Below are positions 20,646 through 32,100 of a DNA stretch of 64,000 nucleotides, piece by piece. The stretch is from Phanerochaete sordida. Lineage: Eukaryota; Basidiomycota; Agaricomycetes; Polyporales; Phanerochaetaceae. How positions within the stretch are numbered: position 1 is the stretch's first letter; each line of letters begins with the position of its first letter. The DNA lies in assembly GCA_019973155.2 (NCBI GenBank), contig BPQB01000030.1:186001-250000 (forward strand), given 5' to 3'. The notes under the pieces were generated by a model. The model searched no databases and was not told the origin of the DNA. It worked only from the letters and a program-made list of their open reading frames with translations. The position numbers and the translations under genes are program-made.

Positions 20646-22481
20646 TCACGAGGACGCACGACAGATGCTCTTGTGCTCTCCTTCTGTCCAGTCCCTACGA
20701 GCCGTGGTCAGCCCTCTAGGTCCGTGTAAGATGCAGTAGCTGACACTCTTACCGTTTCTGACATTTCGTTGAGCAGTACAGGACTGCTTTACACCGAGTA
20801 CATTGACGGAGCTTGTGCTGCGGCCTCTCCCCGAAGCAGAGGCATTCGCGCCAAGCACACCCCATGTCCTTGGACCACGTGCCGCGATCCGCAAGCTTCA
20901 CTGGCGGTGCCGTAGAGATACTGGCGTCGATTTTGCATTTCTGTGCGAGGTCCGTCCACAGCACGATCGCCCTTGATTTATGAGGTGCCATGTCAGACGA
21001 TAGAGACTGTAATTTGGAATATGCATGGTTCCAAATAGGTCCAATGAGATCTGAGCTGTAAGAGATCCACTTGGTTGGATTCAACGGGCTGATCATGAAA
21101 GAATTGGCCTCAAGGGCTAAATTGTCGGGAAGGAACGAGAGTGTGTTGCGGATGTTGCCTAAGAGAATATCAGTCGAAAAGGCCAACACTGTACAGTGTA
21201 CACATGGGCGTGATAGCTCACTCATTCTTCTCTCCGCCAAGGAGGCATCGTCTTGGTCCAAGGCAGCCAATACCGTAGCTCGACCAAGAAGCATGAATAG
21301 CGCGCGGAAGAAGTCGCTCGTATGTGGCAACCTCACTATACCGTATGGCATTGCAAGACTGGAAGAAACATGTCAGCAATCTATAACCTTGCGAGAGAAC
21401 ATAAAGGGTGAGCGGTACCGTATTTGTATGAATACTCTCTCCAAGACTCTCAATTCGTAGCGCTGTTCGCCATGACAGAGCTGTCTCTGCGCTGCTTGCA
21501 GCAAAAGAAGGATGAGGTCATCAGCCTGAGCCCGCGCATGCGCCATTTTTTCGTGAAGGCAAATGAGATTTAGGTCGATTAAGAGATGGAAAAGTTCGTC
21601 GTCCAGTACGTCTTGCTTTCGCAGTCTAGAGCTGCAGCGTTCGATGAACTGGCTCGGCTCAATGGTCTTGAGTGCGATGGCCTTCCCAACAAGCGAGGTT
21701 ATACGGTCGTAGTCATCGTCTGCGCAGAAATACAGGATGGACAGACAATGTTCCGTTGTCATGATCATCTCCGTGGATGTCGCGAGAAGCCAGCAGCGTA
21801 TCACCACGTGCGGAGCAAGCGAGTCCAGAAACTCGGGAGGATAAGAACCTCTGTGGAGTATGAGAATACAATGACATCGGAATCGAGCACAGCATACCTC
21901 ATCTTCCTTCGCAGCTCCAGTTCGGCCATGACAAGGTGAAGAATGTTCCACCGCACGCTGAGCGTCTCTGTATCGTCGGCATTGAGGTTTGTGGACTGGA
22001 GGACGTAGGGAAGTTCGAGAAGCAGATTCCACAAGCTAGGAAGATTTTCCAGCATGTGGCCCGCATACGCCGGTCTGTTTACTGGATGGTAACTGCCCGG
22101 TGTAGGCTCGGTGTACTCAAGGGCGTAGTGAAGGAGATCGTGGAGAGCTTTGGTACCATAGACTACGTGCGGCTGCAGTGAGGTGTTAACCAATACCTTG
22201 GCGTTAACATGGCTTCACACCTTTGTGTAGCTTTCGAAATGAGGCTGAGCGTAAATTCGCCGATCCAAGCAGAAGGCCAAGAGGGCTTGTGGAAGGCCTC
22301 CATCAAATAGGCGGTTGTATGTTTCCGGGTCCCTGGTGTGCTCTGCGAGCATAGTCTCTTGGTAACGCAAGAGAAATCGCAAAATCCCCTGCCAATCCTC
22401 TTGATCGTATAGCTCTCTGAAGACGCTTCCGGCGCGAGTCGGCTCCGACCGAAAGCTGTCCGCAGTCCATATACTCGCCAT
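20646..22481 (-). CDS. MYND zinc-finger protein C
   Basis: Third member of the A/B/C group. Exon 1 starts at 22481 (ASIWTADSFRSEPTRAGSVF). Later exons give VVYGTKALHDLLHYALE, NLPSLWNLLLELPYVLQST, RCWLLATSTEMIMTTEHCLS, RQLCHGEQRYELRVLE, and DFFRALFMLLGRATVLAALD. The finger is ECLCFGERPQHKLRQCTRC, then VLYCSTKCQKR and, past an intron, DWTEGEHKSIC; stop at 20646-20648. All zinc ligands are kept. Compared with A and B, the segment between the LLGRA block and the finger carries a longer insert. Probably intact; function unknown. Confidence 0.7.
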
Positions 22482-23202
22482 CTCGTCGAAAAGGAAGCTT
22501 CGATGAAGTATGAGCGCTGATATTACCGTGGAGAATCAGCGGTGACGCAAGGCGAAACATTATAGGTATATACCGGCCTAGGATGTCGGCTTGCAAAGAG
22601 GCACTGGTCAAGAGTAAGTTGATTACGCGGCCGTTGGTATGCCAGGGGTCCTGACGACGTGACGCGGCAGGACCCCTGTGACCCCGTAACGCACGAGATC
22701 CTTGACTGCACTCCCCACAGTCCAAGTCTCACTGTCACATGCACTTCTGATAGAGGCATCCTACTCTGTATTTGAGTGCCGGAGAAGTTATAGACCAGGG
22801 GCAAAGCTGAAGTCATCAGAAACACAGGAAATGGCCTAACCTGCCGATCTGGCAGAGTTCGCAAGCGAGAAGCGGAGGAGAACGATTATGTATGGGCCAG
22901 GAAGATACACATGCCATACAGGCGAATGGCCATCTTTATGTGAATATTGAGTTGCAACTGGAGCTCGGACCACCACAAAATCTCCGTATAGGCCGGCGTC
23001 CGCTTTTCGGCCGCAGACCACCCAAGTCACCTCGCCATTTCCCGGAGCTCTGGTAGCGCATGTTTGCTACGCATGGCCGCTTCTGAGTTCACAAGTGAGA
23101 AATAGTCTGCATGGTATAAATTATTGTATATATCTGCCAACCGGGTTGATACGCCGCCGCTGCCAACACAAACGACAGTGCTTAGTGCACTGCATATGAG
23201 CA
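22482..23202. other. MYND-C promoter and MYND-D 3' flank
   Basis: Contains the MYND-C composite element (22642-22687) and unassigned sequence up to the MYND-D stop. No coding exon recognised. Confidence 0.4.
22642..22687 (-). promoter_or_regulatory. Shared promoter element of MYND-C, with perfect inverted repeat
   Basis: In gene direction it begins ACGGGGTCACAGGGGTCCTG and ends CAGGACCCCTGG, about 160 bases before the MYND-C ATG. It is three bases longer than the elements of A and B. Here the dyad is perfect over 11 bases: CAGGGGTCCTG at 22643-22653 and its complement CAGGACCCCTG at 22668-22678. The compensated change relative to A and B (CCG to CTG on one arm, CTC to CCC on the other) supports a dimeric binding site. 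Confidence 0.6.
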
Positions 23203-25108
23203 CTATCGGGCGGGCGGTTTACATATGAGCTTGTGTCCGCCTTCCTTCCAATCTCTGATTCAAGGTGATCAGAGCTGCGGACGAGGTTAACGTCATTGAG
23301 CGAATACTCACTTGGTCTGACATTTTGTCGAGCAATACAGTACATTTTCGCACCTCTTGCAGCGCCTTAGCCGGTGATACGGCCGCTCGCCGAAGCATAG
23401 GCACTCCTTCCAGGCGCAGCCATTATCCTTCGCCCATGTACCCGTCGCGCCAGCGATCTCGGCTGGCGGCTCGTAGGGAGCCTCAACGTCGACGCCGCAC
23501 TTCTTTCCGAAGTCGAGCCACCACTTCGTGACGAGGCTGAGGTGCGGAGCTTCCCCGGGAGAGAGCCCCTTCAGATCGTCGTGCGCGCGGTGCCATACCT
23601 GGTGCACGGATCCCCGGAAGTCCATCCACTCAGGCAGGTCGCGCTCTTCTGGTCCTGCACCTTCGAGCGCGGCGCCGCTGATGGCGAACAGCGAAATCAT
23701 CCCTTCCAAGTCGACTGCAGAGACAATGCGTTAGCGTGGCGAGATGGGGTTGTGCGTTGTCTGCACCTAGCTTCTTTAGGTCGGTCTCCATGGCGCCCAG
23801 GACGACCGCTCGCGCGAGGAGCAAGACGATGCTATGAAGGAACTCGCGTGACCCGGTAGGCTTTCTATCCCTATCATTCATCATCATATCTCTAAATCGA
23901 TATCAGCAGTGTTCCATGTGCAAGAATAACGGGGCACCTTACCCGACCATTGAAAACGCGTGCCTCAAAATGCTCCATTCGCAGAATGTGTCGTTTCCTG
24001 TGCACACTTGCCTCTGAGCAGCGCGGAGAAGGTTGAGAGCATGTTCATCGTCGAGGCTGCGTGAACGCTTCATCTGTGGATGCGTAAAGAACCATCCAAG
24101 GTTGTTCATGAGGCATGCGAGCTCGCCGTCGACCACGTCGTCCACGAGAAGCTTGAAGTTGCAGTAGATCACGAACCGCTCTGCCGTGACCGTCTTGCGC
24201 GTGAGCGCACGACCGACAAAAGTTTGGAAGTCTCCGGTCGTGCACATTTCGTAGTAGGATGCGAAGACCGCGTCAAGCTGCGAAAGCGAAGCTTTGTCGT
24301 ATGCGGCGCACCAGCAGACAAGAGCTATGTGCGCCGCATTGTTATTGTGTATACTAGGAGGGCGCCCGCTGAGAAATACAGATCTTAATCAGCCCTAATG
24401 TCTCCGGAGACATGATAAGAATAACTGACCGCACTGGCCTAGATAGAGCGATCTGGCTCATGAGAACATCGACGACGTGTCCGCAGTAGTCCATATCGTC
24501 CTCGGCATCGTCTTCGTCTGGCTCCCACGGGTCAGCGTAAATGTAGTCTGTGTAGTCCCATATAACTGTCCATAGACGTGGCAAGGTGTCGAGGACCTCT
24601 TCCGCCCATTGGCTACCAGGGCCCGCCTTATGGGACGAATGAGTACAGCCTTCATCCACCGCATGATGTACCATGCTCGTCAGGGCGGTGAACACAGAAA
24701 GTAAGTAGTCCTAAGATTAAAGCGACATCCGAGAGCATTAGGACGTGTTTTGATGGCGCACAGAAGAATGCTAACACTCACGGCCAGGTCAGGATCGTCA
24801 GGATAGTGTTCGTAAAGACGCTTGTCCAGCGCGACCTCCAGGAGAGCTTGCGGCATCCCTCCCGAGAAGAGGCCATCAAACTGAGCCTCTGTAGGGTTTG
24901 AATAGTCGAACTCGACGTATTCTGCCATGAAGTTGTACCGCTCCTCGGGGTCAGAATACGCGTGGACTTGTCGCAGCGCGTCACCAGCCCTCTCCGGCTG
25001 CTCGCGGAAGGTCTCGGTCGTCCACACCTCTAGGACGGTAGACACGAGGGCCCCTTCACTGGGCACCGGATTAGCCTTCGATTTTCTGACCTTCTTCTTG
25101 CGGGCCAT
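23203..25108 (-). CDS. MYND zinc-finger protein D
   Basis: Starts at 25108 with a lysine-rich leader (MARKKKVRKSKANPVPSEGA) that resembles a basic nuclear-localisation signal, then VWTTETFREQPERAGDALRQ, FDGLFSGGMPQALLEVALDK, and LPRLWTVIWDYTDYI. The finger-proximal part is DFRGSVHQVWHRAHDDLKGL, ECLCFGERPYHRLRRCKRC, VLYCSTKCQTK, and after an intron DWKEGGHKLICK. A short tail PPAR ends at 23203-23205. It is closer to copy E than to A, B or C. The basic leader is not seen in A, B or C. Function is not known; a nuclear adaptor is only a possibility. Confidence 0.7.
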
Positions 25109-25298
25109 GGTGGTCGACCAGGAAGTTAAATGAGACGCCTGCCGCGGAGGCAAAGTCGGACTTGGGGCCGTAGGCGCCCACCGCGAGACCGCTTCCAAAG
25201 ACCAGGCTTGTCCATCATGGCATTCTGTACATATCGCTGCAGTCACAACATATTCTGTTATACACGATCGCATCCAATAGCACCCTTGTGACGACCCC

Positions 25299-28077
25299 TC
25301 ATACAACGAGCTCCTGCGCGCGCGCGAGAACAGCCTCGACGTCGACATCCGGCGCCTGAGCGACATACTCCATCGCCTTCTCGACGAGCCCGTCGAGCAA
25401 CTCCTTGTCCTGCATGTGCCTCTTGAGAAACGCGATGGCAAGTAGCGTCGCCCACACTTTCTCGGCGACAGCAAGGGCCTTCGCTGCAGCGAGCGCACCA
25501 TCACCGACGATGGCATCGAGAGATTCGTCGGCGGGGAAAGAGCCGTCGAACGCCTGCAAGCGAACGAGGGCGAAGACCTTGTCTGAGGTGCTCTGCATCA
25601 CGAAGGCAGCAGCGTCGATCTGGGGCACAGCAACAGTGGTGGTAACGGGGACGGAAACGCTTTGGCTCGTTCCAGCAGTGCCAGGGGCGCCCCGCGCCCG
25701 CTTGGACGGCAGGCCTGCCTTCTTGCCCCGTGCCACGGGGACACCTCCAGTGCTCTTGCGCGCGGTCTGTTTCGTACGGACCCTGCCCGTCGGCGCTGCG
25801 GCGGTCTTGCGCGCGGCCGTCGTTGCGAGCTGCTTGCGTGCAGCCTTGCCCGAGCCGCGCGGCCTTGGGGGCGCCGCTGGCGTGCCGCCCGTGAACGTGC
25901 CAAGGGCGGCGTACGCCTCCGCGATCCGCGAGAGGTTGGCGTCTGCGTCCTCGTCAAGGCGACGCTTCGCGCGGGTGCGCGCGGCCGGGCCATCGAGAGC
26001 GAGTGCGCGGATCCCAGTCGTGAGCGCGATCTCGTCGGCGGTGCGCGTATCGACGGCGACAAAGGACGTGTAGCGGCTTGCGACCTGGTACGCAGTGCCA
26101 AGCGCGACGATGCGCGCCTTGTTCGCGGGTGTAGGCGTCTGCTGGTCGACGTCGTCGAGCTCCATGATGAGGCGCCGTGCAGTGAGGGTCGGGATGAGCC
26201 CATGACGAGGTTGGTCTGCAGGCACGTCGACGATGTGGACTGGAACATTGAAGCGCAGGACGTCGCCTGTCCCGTCGCGCTGGCCGCATAGGACCACCTC
26301 CGTTGGGGGAACAAAGTTTTTGTCCTCGACAAGAGCGAATACAATGAAGCGATTCCCAGGATAGATGGTTGGAATCTTCGCGGGGGCCTGCTGCACTGCA
26401 GTAACAGCGTCAGCGTGTACGCCCCAGTCGACGCCAACGTTGTTGAGGATGTAGGTCCGGCTTGCGCGTACGAGCTTCGAGCACTTGCCGATGATGTTCT
26501 CCGCAGCAATCGCCATCTCGCAGATGCCGTTGCCTCGACGGGCGATGCCCTCACACATCTCGCTAGAAGTAGTAGAGCCAATGCCAAGGGTGAACACTCG
26601 CAGCGGCGCGGGGCCTTCGCCCGTCTTGACTGCGTCGCTCACGACGTTGAGGGAGCCTGCGAGGTTCCAAGCCTATGAAATGTTATCAGTAGGAGAAAAG
26701 AGCCATAATTGAAGCTGCGTACTTCTCCATCGGTGAGAACAAAGCATGCCGTAGGTTTGTCAAACCTGCGGGAGGCAAAGACCTTCTCAAGGGCAATCTG
26801 AATTTCTGTCCCCCCGTAGTTGGCCGACATGCTGTCTACATGTTGTGTCTACACACGATGAGTCAGCGACAGTGATAGTGAAAGCACAATGAACTTACAG
26901 CAAACGCTAGACTCTCCGCGTTGTACTCGACGCTCTCCGGCCAAAGGCTGTCGCAGCTATTGCCAAAGCTGAATATGTTCAGGTGCGTTCCCTGTGTGGG
27001 AAGCGCCCTCAGGAGCATGACAAGCGCGCGCTTGGCAGTCTCGATTCGGTTTCCGGTCATGCTGCCGCTGCGGTCGACGAGGAATATATATTCCTGGCTG
27101 GCGATGGGCGGGAGGTTGAACTTGGGCACGAGGTTGAGCTGCATAGCGACAGCACCCGTAGAGGCACTTTCAGCAATGCAGCGCGGAGCATCAAGCCCAT
27201 CGGCGGCAATGCAGAGGACGAAGTCGCTTGTGAGGAAGTCTGGTGAGCGGTAGGTGGTGTTGCGCAGCGTCGGGGCTGATCCGCCTTCGGCGACGGTAAG
27301 CGTCGGATGCGTCAGGCTTGTGACGCCCCTGATAGCGCCTTGCATGTGCACGTCGACCGAGATGCTGACACGGTCAAGGGGGGCCTGCCGTGCGTGCACT
27401 GTGTTCTGCGGCGGCATGCCATAACGTTCCGCCACGTACTTCGGAATCTGTAGCCTAACCTCGTCGACGGTATTGCCATCCATGAGGTCAAGCACATACT
27501 GCACAAGGTAAGACGTCGACGTAGACTGCGGAAAAGGCACCACCTACAGTCACCGTAGTCGTGATGACCTGATTGCCGGGAAGGGCGCCGACAGAGATGG
27601 AGAAGACTAGAGCTAGTGGTGAGCATTGAAGACGTCGCCAACGGCGATGAACAAACTGACCATCGTCGGTGACATGCTCGACCAAACCGGCAGTCTGCCC
27701 GCTGCGGATGGCGTCCTCGTACTCTTTGCGCGCCTCGTCGCGCTCCTTGGCGATGGCCTTGATGACAGCGCCGTCCTCGGTGGTCATCGTGAAGCCGCAT
27801 ACGGCTGATCTGGCGGGTACAGGAAAGATATACTGGGCATGGGCGAGGGCTGTCGGAGACGACTGCCAGAAGCGCTGGGTGATGGTGACGATGGCAGACA
27901 CTGGGCGCACGGCCGTCAGCGACCCGTCACAGAGCGACGACTAGAAGGGACCTGACCGTCAATCACGTTTGCATGGACCTCGGTCTGCTCGAGGGGCAGA
28001 TTGACCGTGCTGAGGTCTTGCTGGACATGGACGATACCGCAGGTCGGCCTCCTGGTGCCAAAAAGCTTGGTGCGCAT
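25299..28077 (-). CDS. VIT-vWA protein with histone H3 tail-like linker
   Basis: Multi-exon gene, roughly 800 residues. Exon 1 starts at 28077 (MRTKLFGTRRPTCGIVHVQQ). The VIT domain follows (SAIVTITQRF, QYIFPVPARSAVCGFTMTTE, AGLVEHVTDDG), then a vWA domain with a complete metal-ion site: FLVDRSGSMTGNRI, NYGGTEI and CFVLTDGE. A beta-rich segment ends VALGTAYQVASRYTSFVAVD. The linker contains KAARKQLATTAARK (25806-25847) and RTKQTARKSTGG (25743-25778), copies of H3 tail sequence. The C-terminal block is ALVRLQAFDGSFPADESLDA...LLDGLVEKAMEYVAQ. VIT-vWA proteins (ITIH, PARP4, VWA5 type) mediate protein-protein contacts. No signal peptide, so probably intracellular. Tandem paralogue at 29156-32215. 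Confidence 0.82.
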
Positions 28078-29155: not shown

Positions 29156-32100
29156 TCACTGAACGAACGCCTCCGCACGAGCCAGCAACGCGCCAACGTC
29201 GATCCCGGAAACACTTTGAAGATACTCCATGACCTTCTCGACCAAGCCGTCGAGAAGCTCCGGCTGGTCCTTCATGTGCTCCCTGAGGTAGGCGATGGCG
29301 AGCGCGGTCACCCACGCCTTCTGGTCGACCTGCAGGTTCGCCGCCTCGCCGAGGCACGGCTTCCCAATAATCTTCTCGACGGTCGCCACGGGTGGGAAGG
29401 AGCCGTCGAACTCCTGCAGGCGGATGAGTTTGAGTACCTTCGCCTCGGTCGCCAGGTCGCCCTCCTCGGTCGCGTCTACGTCCATCTCGTCGGGGCCAGC
29501 CGCTGCACCGGTAGCGTTCCTATCAACGTGTCTGCCACGCGGCATCATCCCACCGTGAAGGGAGAATAGCTGTGGTGCGGGAGGAGCTGGCGCGGGTAGA
29601 GGTGCCCTGCACGCAAGCGGCGCGGGTGCGGCAGGCGGAGACCTCGCAGCCCCGAATGAGCCAAACGCAGCCGACATCGTGGGAGGGGGCGGCGGTGGCG
29701 GGCTTGCCGACGAGCCAAACAGACCTCCACTGCTCCCGGACGAGAAGGAACCAGGGCTCGATGCGCCGAAGACGGACGTCGTGCGCAAAGCTGGTTGGCC
29801 AAAGGCGGATGACGCGCTCATAGCACGCTGTCCGAAGGCAGATACCGTACCCATAGCCGGCTGGCCGAATGCGGATGTCGCACCCATAGCCGACTGGCCG
29901 AATGCGGATGTCGCACCCATAGCCGGCTGGCCGAAGGCGGACACGTTTAACGCGGTGGCGCGGCTTTGCAGCTGCTGCTGGGCCTGCATCTGCTGCTGAG
30001 CCTGCGCGGCCATGGGCGCACCGAAAAATTGCTGGGTCTGATGATTTTGGGGCGAGGCGGCAAACGACATGCCCATCGCCCTCAGCGCACCGAACGGCTG
30101 CGCCACGGGTGGCTGGCGGGTCAGCTCGGGCTCTGCGGGCAGCTCGGTGTGCGTGCGCTTGTCGACGGCGACGAAGGACGTGTAGCGGCTCGCGAGCTGG
30201 TACTCCGTGCCGAGAGCGACGACCGCGGGCTTAACGTCCTGCGCTGCGCCGTCGCGCGCGCCGTCTTCGAGGTCCATGATGCGGCGGCGCGCGGCGAGCG
30301 TCGGGATGAGGCGCGCGTGCGGGTGGTCTGCGGGGAACTCGACGACCTGGATGGGCACCGAGAACTGCAGGACCTCGCCCTGGCCGTCGCGCTGCGCGCG
30401 AATGACGACTTCGTTTGGAGGCGTGTAGGCCGGGTCGTCGATGAGCGCGAAGACGATGAAGCGGTTCCCGGGGTAGATGGCGGAGACTTGCGCTGGCGCC
30501 TGCTGGACGCCCTTGAGCGTGGTGTTCCCCGTGCGATACGCTTCCGCGAGATCGTTGCGCACGCCCCAGTCGACGGAGACGTTCTTGAGGACGTACGTCC
30601 GGCTCGCGCGCACGAGCTTCGAGCACTTGCCGATGATGCCCTCAGAAGTCGTGGACATGAGGCACACGCCATTGCCTGCACGGGCAATGCCCTCGCACAT
30701 GGCTGAGGAAGTAGTACTGCCGATGCCGAGGGTGAAGACACGGAGCGGAGCAGACGAGGCTGCCTGCTTCACCGCCTTGTCCACCGTCGATATGGTTTGG
30801 TCTATATTGTACGTCTGTAGGGCAACGGTGAGCAAGTGTGGAGGCAATCAATGGTAAGGCAACTGACCTCGCCGTCCGTGAGCACAAAACAGGCTGTGGG
30901 CGTGTCATTCTTACGCGAGCGGAATACCTGCTCCAACGCTCCATTCATCTCGGTACCGCCATAGTTGGCCCACATGGTGTCCACGTGCGCAGTCTGGACA
31001 GACACGGTGTCAGTCGATGCAAAGCAGCTGGACGAAGTGCACTTACAGCGGAATTGAGAGACTCGCCGTCATACGGGATGCTCTGCGGCCAGAGGCTGTC
31101 ACAGTGGCTGCCGAAGCTGAAGATGTTGAAGTGCGTGCCCTGGCTCGGCAGCGCGCGGAGGAGCATCACCAGTGCCTTCTTCGCCATCTCGATGCGGTCG
31201 CCGTTCATGCTCCCGCTGCGGTCGACGAGGAAGACGTACTCCTGCCGCGGCACAGATGGCAGGTTGAACTTCGGGACGACGTTTAACTGAATCGCGGTGG
31301 CGCCGTTCTTCGCCTTCTGCGCGAAGCACCGCGGCGCGTCGAGGCCCTCGGCCTTGATCGACAGCACGAAGTCTTGCGCGAGGAAGTCGGACGAGACGTA
31401 GCGCGCGCTCCGCTGCGCGTGCGGGACATCGCTGTTGAGGACGGTGACGGTAGGGTGCGAAGAGCTCGTGACGCTCTTCACGGCGCCCTGCATGCGCACG
31501 TCCGCAGAGATGCTGATGCGGTGGGGCGGGACCCGCTGCGCGTCTTGCATGCCGTCCGGAAGCCTGCCGTACCGCATGCCGATGGACATAGGGATCTGAA
31601 CTCGCACCGAGTCGGTGACATCCTCCTCCATCAAATCGAGCACGTACTGTGTATCATGAGCATTATGTATCTCAGACGATGAGACTAGAGCCTACTTACA
31701 GTAATCTGGACCTGTATCATCTGGTGGCTCGGCAGCGCGCCAAGTGAGATAGAGAATACTGCGGACAAGGTTCAGCTCCTGCGGAGTATCAGACGAGAGC
31801 CGGACTCACCATCGTCGGTGACGTGCTCAACCAGGCCCGTCATGAAGCCCTGAGCAATGGCTTGCTCATGCTCGCGCTTTGCTTCTTCTTTCTCCTTCGC
31901 CACAGCCGTGATGACAGTACCGTCCTCGGTGGTCATCTCGAACCCGCAGACGGCAGCCCGAGCGGGGACGGGGAAGATGTACTTGGCCTTCTTCAGCCCG
32001 AGGGGCGAGCATTGCCAGTACTGCTGCGTAACCGTCACGATAGCAGACACTAGAGGTACGCGTCAGAAGCAAACGAGGGCGACAAGACCGTACTCACCGT

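Follow-up and report, generated by a model that had tools for sequence, protein, structure and literature searches.

Tails of histones H3 and H4 and of the ribosomal stalk copied into the linkers of VIT-vWA proteins of Phanerochaete sordida, and their possible display as bait

The tail of histone H3 has been found, in two rearranged pieces, in the predicted disordered linker of a VIT-vWA protein of the fungus Phanerochaete sordida, and paralogous linkers of the same genome carry at the shared position the tail of histone H4 or that of the ribosomal P-stalk. Judged by its sequence, this gene is a histone mimic, with an H3-tail stretch inside a non-histone protein, and the arrangement suggests that the linker may be a displayed bait or a docking tag. 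The reading we favour, at a probability of roughly 0.45, is that such linkers may display the copied tails as bait against foreign effectors. The gene lies in the window, the whole stretch of 64 kb analysed here (C30:186001-250000, within the 40.8-Mb genome of 222 contigs), and all its parts given below are read on the minus strand.

The VIT exon frame or frames (27490..27940, exon borders approximate) match PF08487 at E = 8.9e-25 over frame residues 11-131, and most of the vWA domain is encoded by exon frames at 26720..27543, with a small intron between 27543-26901 and 26848-26720; the first of these is matched by PF13768 (VWA_3) at E = 2.5e-9 in the Pfam scan, and homologues match the vWA frames exon by exon in tblastn. 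With a VIT domain and a vWA domain downstream of it, the H3-tail gene is, on sequence grounds, a member of the VIT-vWA family. The last exon frame of 457 residues (25302..26672) runs open through the vWA end, a hybrid and helical part, the linker and a conserved C-terminal helical block. The AlphaFold2 model of this frame (43-sequence alignment, mean pLDDT 74, pTM 0.48) is confident for the body and for the helical block (residues 362-456, 25305..25589, block means 85-98) on either side of the linker (residues 216-355, 25608..26027), which is predicted to be disordered, with pLDDT below 50 across most of its length. The structure search with the model gave a single match at E <= 0.001, the flagellar protein 9e5c, followed by ITIH1 and other vWA proteins, with no outstanding match to the C-terminal block; for the vWA, Foldseek returned ITIH1 (6fpz) with a probability of 1.00 and E = 8.9e-3. 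No histone Pfam domain, and hence no sign of a histone fold, was detected in the last-exon frame at E <= 0.1, and the Rfam search of the window gave zero matches.

The original prediction had read KAARKQLATTAARK from codons 25847-25806 and RTKQTARKSTGG from codons 25778-25743, and had placed this H3 tail in the linker that separates the vWA region from the conserved C-terminal block; both readings and the placement hold, the two segments sharing the open frame 26672-25302 with conserved flanks on either side. The second segment, RTKQTARKSTGG (25743..25778), is indeed identical to H3 2-13 in 12/12 residues, as found by codon reading, by the match to PDB sequences and by a genome pattern search. 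For the first segment the likeness to H3 14-27 is real and extends further than was claimed, since KAARKQLATTAARK is part of GKAARKQLATTAARKTAAAPTGRV (25779..25850), which precedes the 2-13 copy in the linker and resembles about H3 12-35; its stretch GKAARKQLATTAARKTAA shares 16/18 residues with the fungus's own H3 encoded on C111. The changes P16A and K23T were correctly noted in it, while TA in the place of SA does not count as a change, the fungus's own H3 having AARKTA in the genes on C111 and C22. The residues of the modification sites are kept in QTARKS (K9, S10), GKAxRKQL (K14, K18) and AARKT (K27). Behind the copies follows a basic stretch, VPVARGKKAGLPSKRARG (25689..25742), with a PSKR-like motif that is common, in the alignment, to the P. 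carnosa homologue P0041 and to the paralogues and is possibly a nuclear import signal.

In comparison with the H3 tail the linker, through segment 1, reaches a score of 81, matched by 0/2000 shuffles, and among the PDB sequences it finds Histone H3.1 first (E = 1.9e-4). A scan of the whole genome with a DNA pattern that encodes QTARKSTGG gave six sites, namely in four H3 genes, in the window gene and in one unrelated protein on C146, while the reversed control pattern has no site there. With the composition of the window linker itself, an exact RTKQTARKSTGG is expected 5.5e-6 times per 27 million residues, or about 2e-5 times in the six frames of 40.8 Mb (~82 million residues). The shuffle test was extended to 66 linker rows, of which 60 were tested after the removal of six too short: against the H3 tail the window gene stood at 0/2000, P0029 at 1/2000, P0021 at 3/2000, P0015 at 29/2000 and the others higher, the best with the reversed H3 being P0035 at 1/300. 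P0029, whose linker reads KQQIRTSGSGKAARKMMA, may represent an older H3-like form, and neither it nor P0021 is counted here as an established copy.

Eight loci of the genome match the C-terminal block, one lying on C22 and the other seven on C30, where the window holds two of them, and the linkers of these paralogues differ radically from each other. The linker of C30:300k, SRGKGGKGLGKGGA, contains RGKGGKGLGKGGA, which is identical to histone H4 3-15 in 13/13 residues, keeps K5, K8 and K12, and finds Histone H4 among the PDB sequences at E = 0.003 (natural chain) or 0.0015 (fusion construct). The same H4 stretch occurs in C30:284k, which looks like a broken copy because its vWA part is missing and its VIT part lies in a different frame; the use of this pair as a selection test was dropped because of these defects of C30:284k, the two being moreover identical across 49 codons round the H4 tail, outside of which they show 13 synonymous and 21 other codon differences. 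The linker of C22:355k bears three near-copies of the P-stalk tail, SDDDMGFGCFD, EESDDEMGFGLFD (the best) and EESDDDMGFGVFD, which match the stalk proteins P0, P1 and P2 among the PDB sequences with a best E of 0.08; DDMGFG/DEMGFG patterns were found in the whole genome only at one P-protein end (C19) and in these three copies, in which DDD and FGLF of the stalk peptide are kept or nearly kept.

The remaining linkers are of other kinds. The second VIT-vWA gene of the window (29156..31691 from the vWA to the C-terminus, minus strand, by exon frames, tblastn and Pfam) has a linker with nucleoporin-like FG repeats, AFGQ and GLFG (29429..30151, minus), whose GLFG panel match, reached by 2 in 1000 shuffles, is of low complexity and non-specific; C30:305k and C30:281k have RS repeats, and the linker of C30:311k is of no H3, H4, stalk, FG or RS type. 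Beside the C30:279k match, an RS-linker VIT-vWA gene, lies a minisatellite-like tract with repeated RRQKAEG on the plus strand. At 21373-25150 of the window (minus) two adjacent and mutually similar genes were also seen, one of which encodes a MYND-like finger that falls short of the PF01753 cut-off of 22.7 bits, scoring 21.1. In a tree built without the linkers (59 rows, C30:284k omitted, C30:305k incomplete) the window gene and C30:300k are sisters with support 98/98, so that the H3 copy and the H4 copy are borne by sister genes, and C22:355k groups with two RS genes (97/96).

The specificity of these likenesses was assessed with a panel of 60 linkers x 18 peptides, in which 36 forward matches at p <= 0.01 stood against 21 with reversed peptides. 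Reversed GAR and RS peptides scored 98 and 68, and the best non-repeat reversed score was 53; above the latter were H4 in C30:300k and C30:284k (77), H3 in the window gene (75) and the stalk in C22:355k (72) and P0014 (65), with P0057 (54) and P0029 (50) at the border. The FG, RS and GAR linkers were rejected as further mimics owing to their low complexity and to the reversed GAR and RS scores, and the panel matches of acidic or Gly-Lys-rich linkers to Hsp70, SmD and tubulin peptides were attributed to composition. That the copies could be chance similarity or an assembly artefact might be argued from the modest E-values of the PDB matches in such biased linkers (1.9e-4 for H3, 0.003 for natural H4, 0.08 for the stalk); this explanation is hardly credible, since the exact matches expected in all 10,265 linker residues, at own-linker composition, number 2e-9 for the H3 12-mer and 8e-11 for the H4 13-mer, while an artefact is contradicted by frames open into either flank and by codons unlike those of the own histone genes. 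That a single family of paralogues holds copies of the H3, H4 and stalk tails rules out simple coincidence, and by these sequence statistics chance is excluded for the H3 copy.

The search with the last-exon frame gave 59 homologous proteins at E <= 0.001 among candidates of 251-800 residues, the full length being estimated at 850-900. The linker of P0014, from another genome, has a stalk copy, DSDDDEMGFGLFD, its sister P0003 a decayed version, ESDGDMGCMLVD, and that of P0057 from Serendipita vermifera reads DEDMGFSLND. Retention of the H3 segments by orthologues, which had been proposed as a check, is found only in part: P0041 of P. carnosa has GSEKAARKQL at the matching place, with the P16A change in common with the window gene, but lacks RTKQTARKSTGG in a gene model that is short, and 0/59 homologues matched a list of H3 motifs that did not include the RKQLS of P0041. 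From the shared motif we infer that P0041 is the orthologue of the window gene, the linker-free tree placing it only to within a group of 26 rows. Residues 262-330 alone gave no match at E <= 10 among 535 candidates of 251-800 residues in the protein collection, a weak negative, because a match of 12 residues cannot reach this threshold among 5.8 billion sequences. Other linkers of the family include an RGG/GAR-type repeat of low complexity, GSGRGRGGFGSGRGRGGF, in P0024 of Hermanssonia centrifuga, and KRKRGRPPKP in P0031, which we take to be an AT-hook-like motif.

The history of the copies was approached through 13 codon tests against the own histone genes, with codon usage taken from four family members (their last exons, together with the linkers). 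A codon comparison with the own H3 genes had been suggested in the original prediction: segment 1 and the C111 H3 gene have 13/16 codons in common, against 7.9 expected (P = 0.0037, about 0.05 when corrected for the 13 tests), and segment 1 is the only one to exceed the expectation from codon usage, whereas segment 2 differs from the nearest own H3 genes in 6/12 codons with zero residue changes, and the H4 copy from the nearest own H4 gene in 6/13 codons, likewise with zero residue changes. That segment 2 or the H4 copy had been captured as DNA in recent times was rejected in the absence of an excess of identical codons in these tests; codon differences without change of residue fit an old copy under selection, or convergence, or a source gene that was not sampled. 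Gly13, at which segment 1 starts and segment 2 ends, coincides by eye with the exon 1/2 junction in 3/4 H3 genes, C22 being the exception, and this common boundary hints at an origin from exons.

From these data it might be supposed that the linkers hold relics, that is, captured pieces of histone and ribosomal coding sequence that merely persist, or that they act just as a nuclear import signal or a spacer of charged residues, the likeness to tails having no role of its own. Such an account draws on the codons which segment 1, with its amino-acid changes, shares with C111, on the Gly13 bounds, on the H3 island with 16 K/R and zero D/E in 56 residues, and on the drift of P0041, but we regard it as rather improbable: segment 2 and the H4 copy have remained identical in protein in spite of their codon changes, which is unlike neutral decay unless the source gene escaped sampling, the acidic stalk copies cannot act as import signals, and the H4 stretch crosses, by eye, the position of the intron in 4/4 H4 genes.

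A second H3-tail protein of the same genome is PsYK624_166210 on C146 (L009:3487-4086, minus strand), with RTKQTARKSTGGRLPRKVLADMAARG near its N-terminus, 20/26 residues of which are identical to H3 2-27, and with a coiled-coil-like end; among 1033 candidates its only match at E <= 10 was its own P. sordida record. The same H3 12-mer is thus borne, as far as sequence tells, by two unrelated non-histone proteins of this genome. A charged frame that resembles the C146 gene lies directly upstream of it, and at C1:702579-703045 (minus) a diverged H3 variant was noticed that lacks the canonical tail and may be a centromeric H3.

The existence of the C146 protein could also speak for the other functional explanation, by which the copied tails dock the fungus's own enzymes or readers, such as the H3K9 methyltransferase and HP1, an H4 acetyltransferase and bromodomain, or translational GTPases, and so regulate or localise each VIT-vWA protein. 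The classical modification sites retained in the H3 copy (K9, S10, K14, K18, K27) and in the H4 copy (K5, K8, K12) agree with it, and short ARK mimics provide a precedent in the excerpted account of ATF7IP, methylated by G9a/GLP (PMC6172828). A regulatory site should, however, persist in relatives, yet sisters bear different tails and P0041 is without the 2-13 copy, which leaves own-enzyme docking, in our estimate, somewhat unlikely. The earlier suggestion of a substrate or decoy for H3 writers and readers was a reasonable guess but too narrow, because H4 and stalk tails in the paralogous linkers leave the family unexplained by H3 partners alone.

Display as bait, the reading preferred here, would work as follows. 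The disordered linker between the vWA body and the helical C-terminal block would expose copies of conserved cellular tail peptides; proteins that recognise the tails of H3, H4 or the stalk, foremost foreign effectors or toxins directed at chromatin or ribosomes, would bind or modify the copy and would thereby be titrated, or sensed through the vWA body, and lineages would swap one copied peptide for another. The shared linker position of the H3, H4 and stalk peptides, the predicted disorder of the window gene's linker, and a divergence of linkers that is faster than that of their flanks (linker identity below both flanks in 12/12 pairs, hand-picked and mostly tree neighbours) are consistent with this. 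Against it stand the missing free ends, which disfavour some interactions, the loss of the 2-13 copy in P0041, and the approach to H3, besides the window gene, of only P0029 and P0021 among 60 linkers. Arg2 of the H3 copy is preceded by Val, without the free Ala1 of real H3, and the stalk copies are without the terminal carboxylate of the real stalk tail. Readers that need the free H3 N-terminus should bind poorly to a copy with Val instead of Ala1.

Two comparisons tip the balance towards bait or decoy display. In PARP4, the stretch that joins the VIT-vWA region to a C-terminal helical domain is disordered and highly variable and is reported to have evolved under recurrent positive selection in primates and bats, the other vertebrate pairs analysed giving a similar signal (PMC4038475, PMC10450202), and ribosome-inactivating proteins dock on the stalk peptide SD[D/E]DMGFGLFD by way of DDD and FGLF (PMC3280276); from these we infer the step from copy to bait. 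By description, PARP4 resembles the window gene in having a VIT-vWA region that is followed by disorder and then by a helical C-terminal part, which in the window gene is a predicted helical block, and differs in its PARP catalytic part and vault binding, tail copies being unmentioned in the excerpted descriptions. Clade B2 unites the fungal VIT-vWFA proteins with Dictyostelium Vwa1 and human VWA5A, which are cytoplasmic, possess a C-terminal domain and have paralogues specific to their lineages, and the excerpted report mentions no copied histone or ribosomal tails in them (PMC10539598). The mimics methylated by G9a/GLP share with our case a histone-like sequence in a non-histone protein (PMC6172828); they are of ARK size, whereas here 12-13 exact residues, rearranged H3 halves and other tails in the paralogues are seen from sequence alone. 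Integrated decoys of plant NLR pairs, in the excerpted account, fuse a copy of the targeted protein part elsewhere as bait (PMC4246468), and such a cellular part inside another protein is found here as H3, H4 and stalk peptides in linkers. Unlike those NLR-based decoys, the copies are peptides in the disordered linker of a non-NLR protein and are likewise known from sequence: the Pfam scans detected no NLR-type domain, either in 61 family members, where they found 13 families, or in the scanned exons of the window. The SNAG domain, a peptide at the N-terminus, acts towards LSD1 as an imitation of the H3 tail and is only distantly H3-like in letters. Among the titles and abstract starts listed by full-text searches of open-licence PMC papers, none described VIT-vWA proteins with copies of the H3, H4 or stalk tails.

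A broader proposal, which is possible but more tentative than bait display itself, is that these proteins may form a fungal intracellular family of sensing or defence, in which the hypervariable disordered linker would be an interchangeable slot for the best-conserved and most-attacked tails of the cell, H3, H4 and the P-stalk, with sisters specialised for one or another, and of which the positively selected PARP4 linker would be the animal counterpart. If the copies serve as own-enzyme docking sites instead, they would be ready-made peptides for the discovery of partners, and no longer natural copy of a histone tail in a non-histone protein is known to us. If they are baits, the linkers would be a fungal peptide-display counterpart of plant integrated decoys, each copied tail would reveal an attacked target, chromatin or the ribosome stalk, and a testable idea would be at hand for the positive selection on the matching PARP4 linker; the display slot, if proven, would be categorically new.
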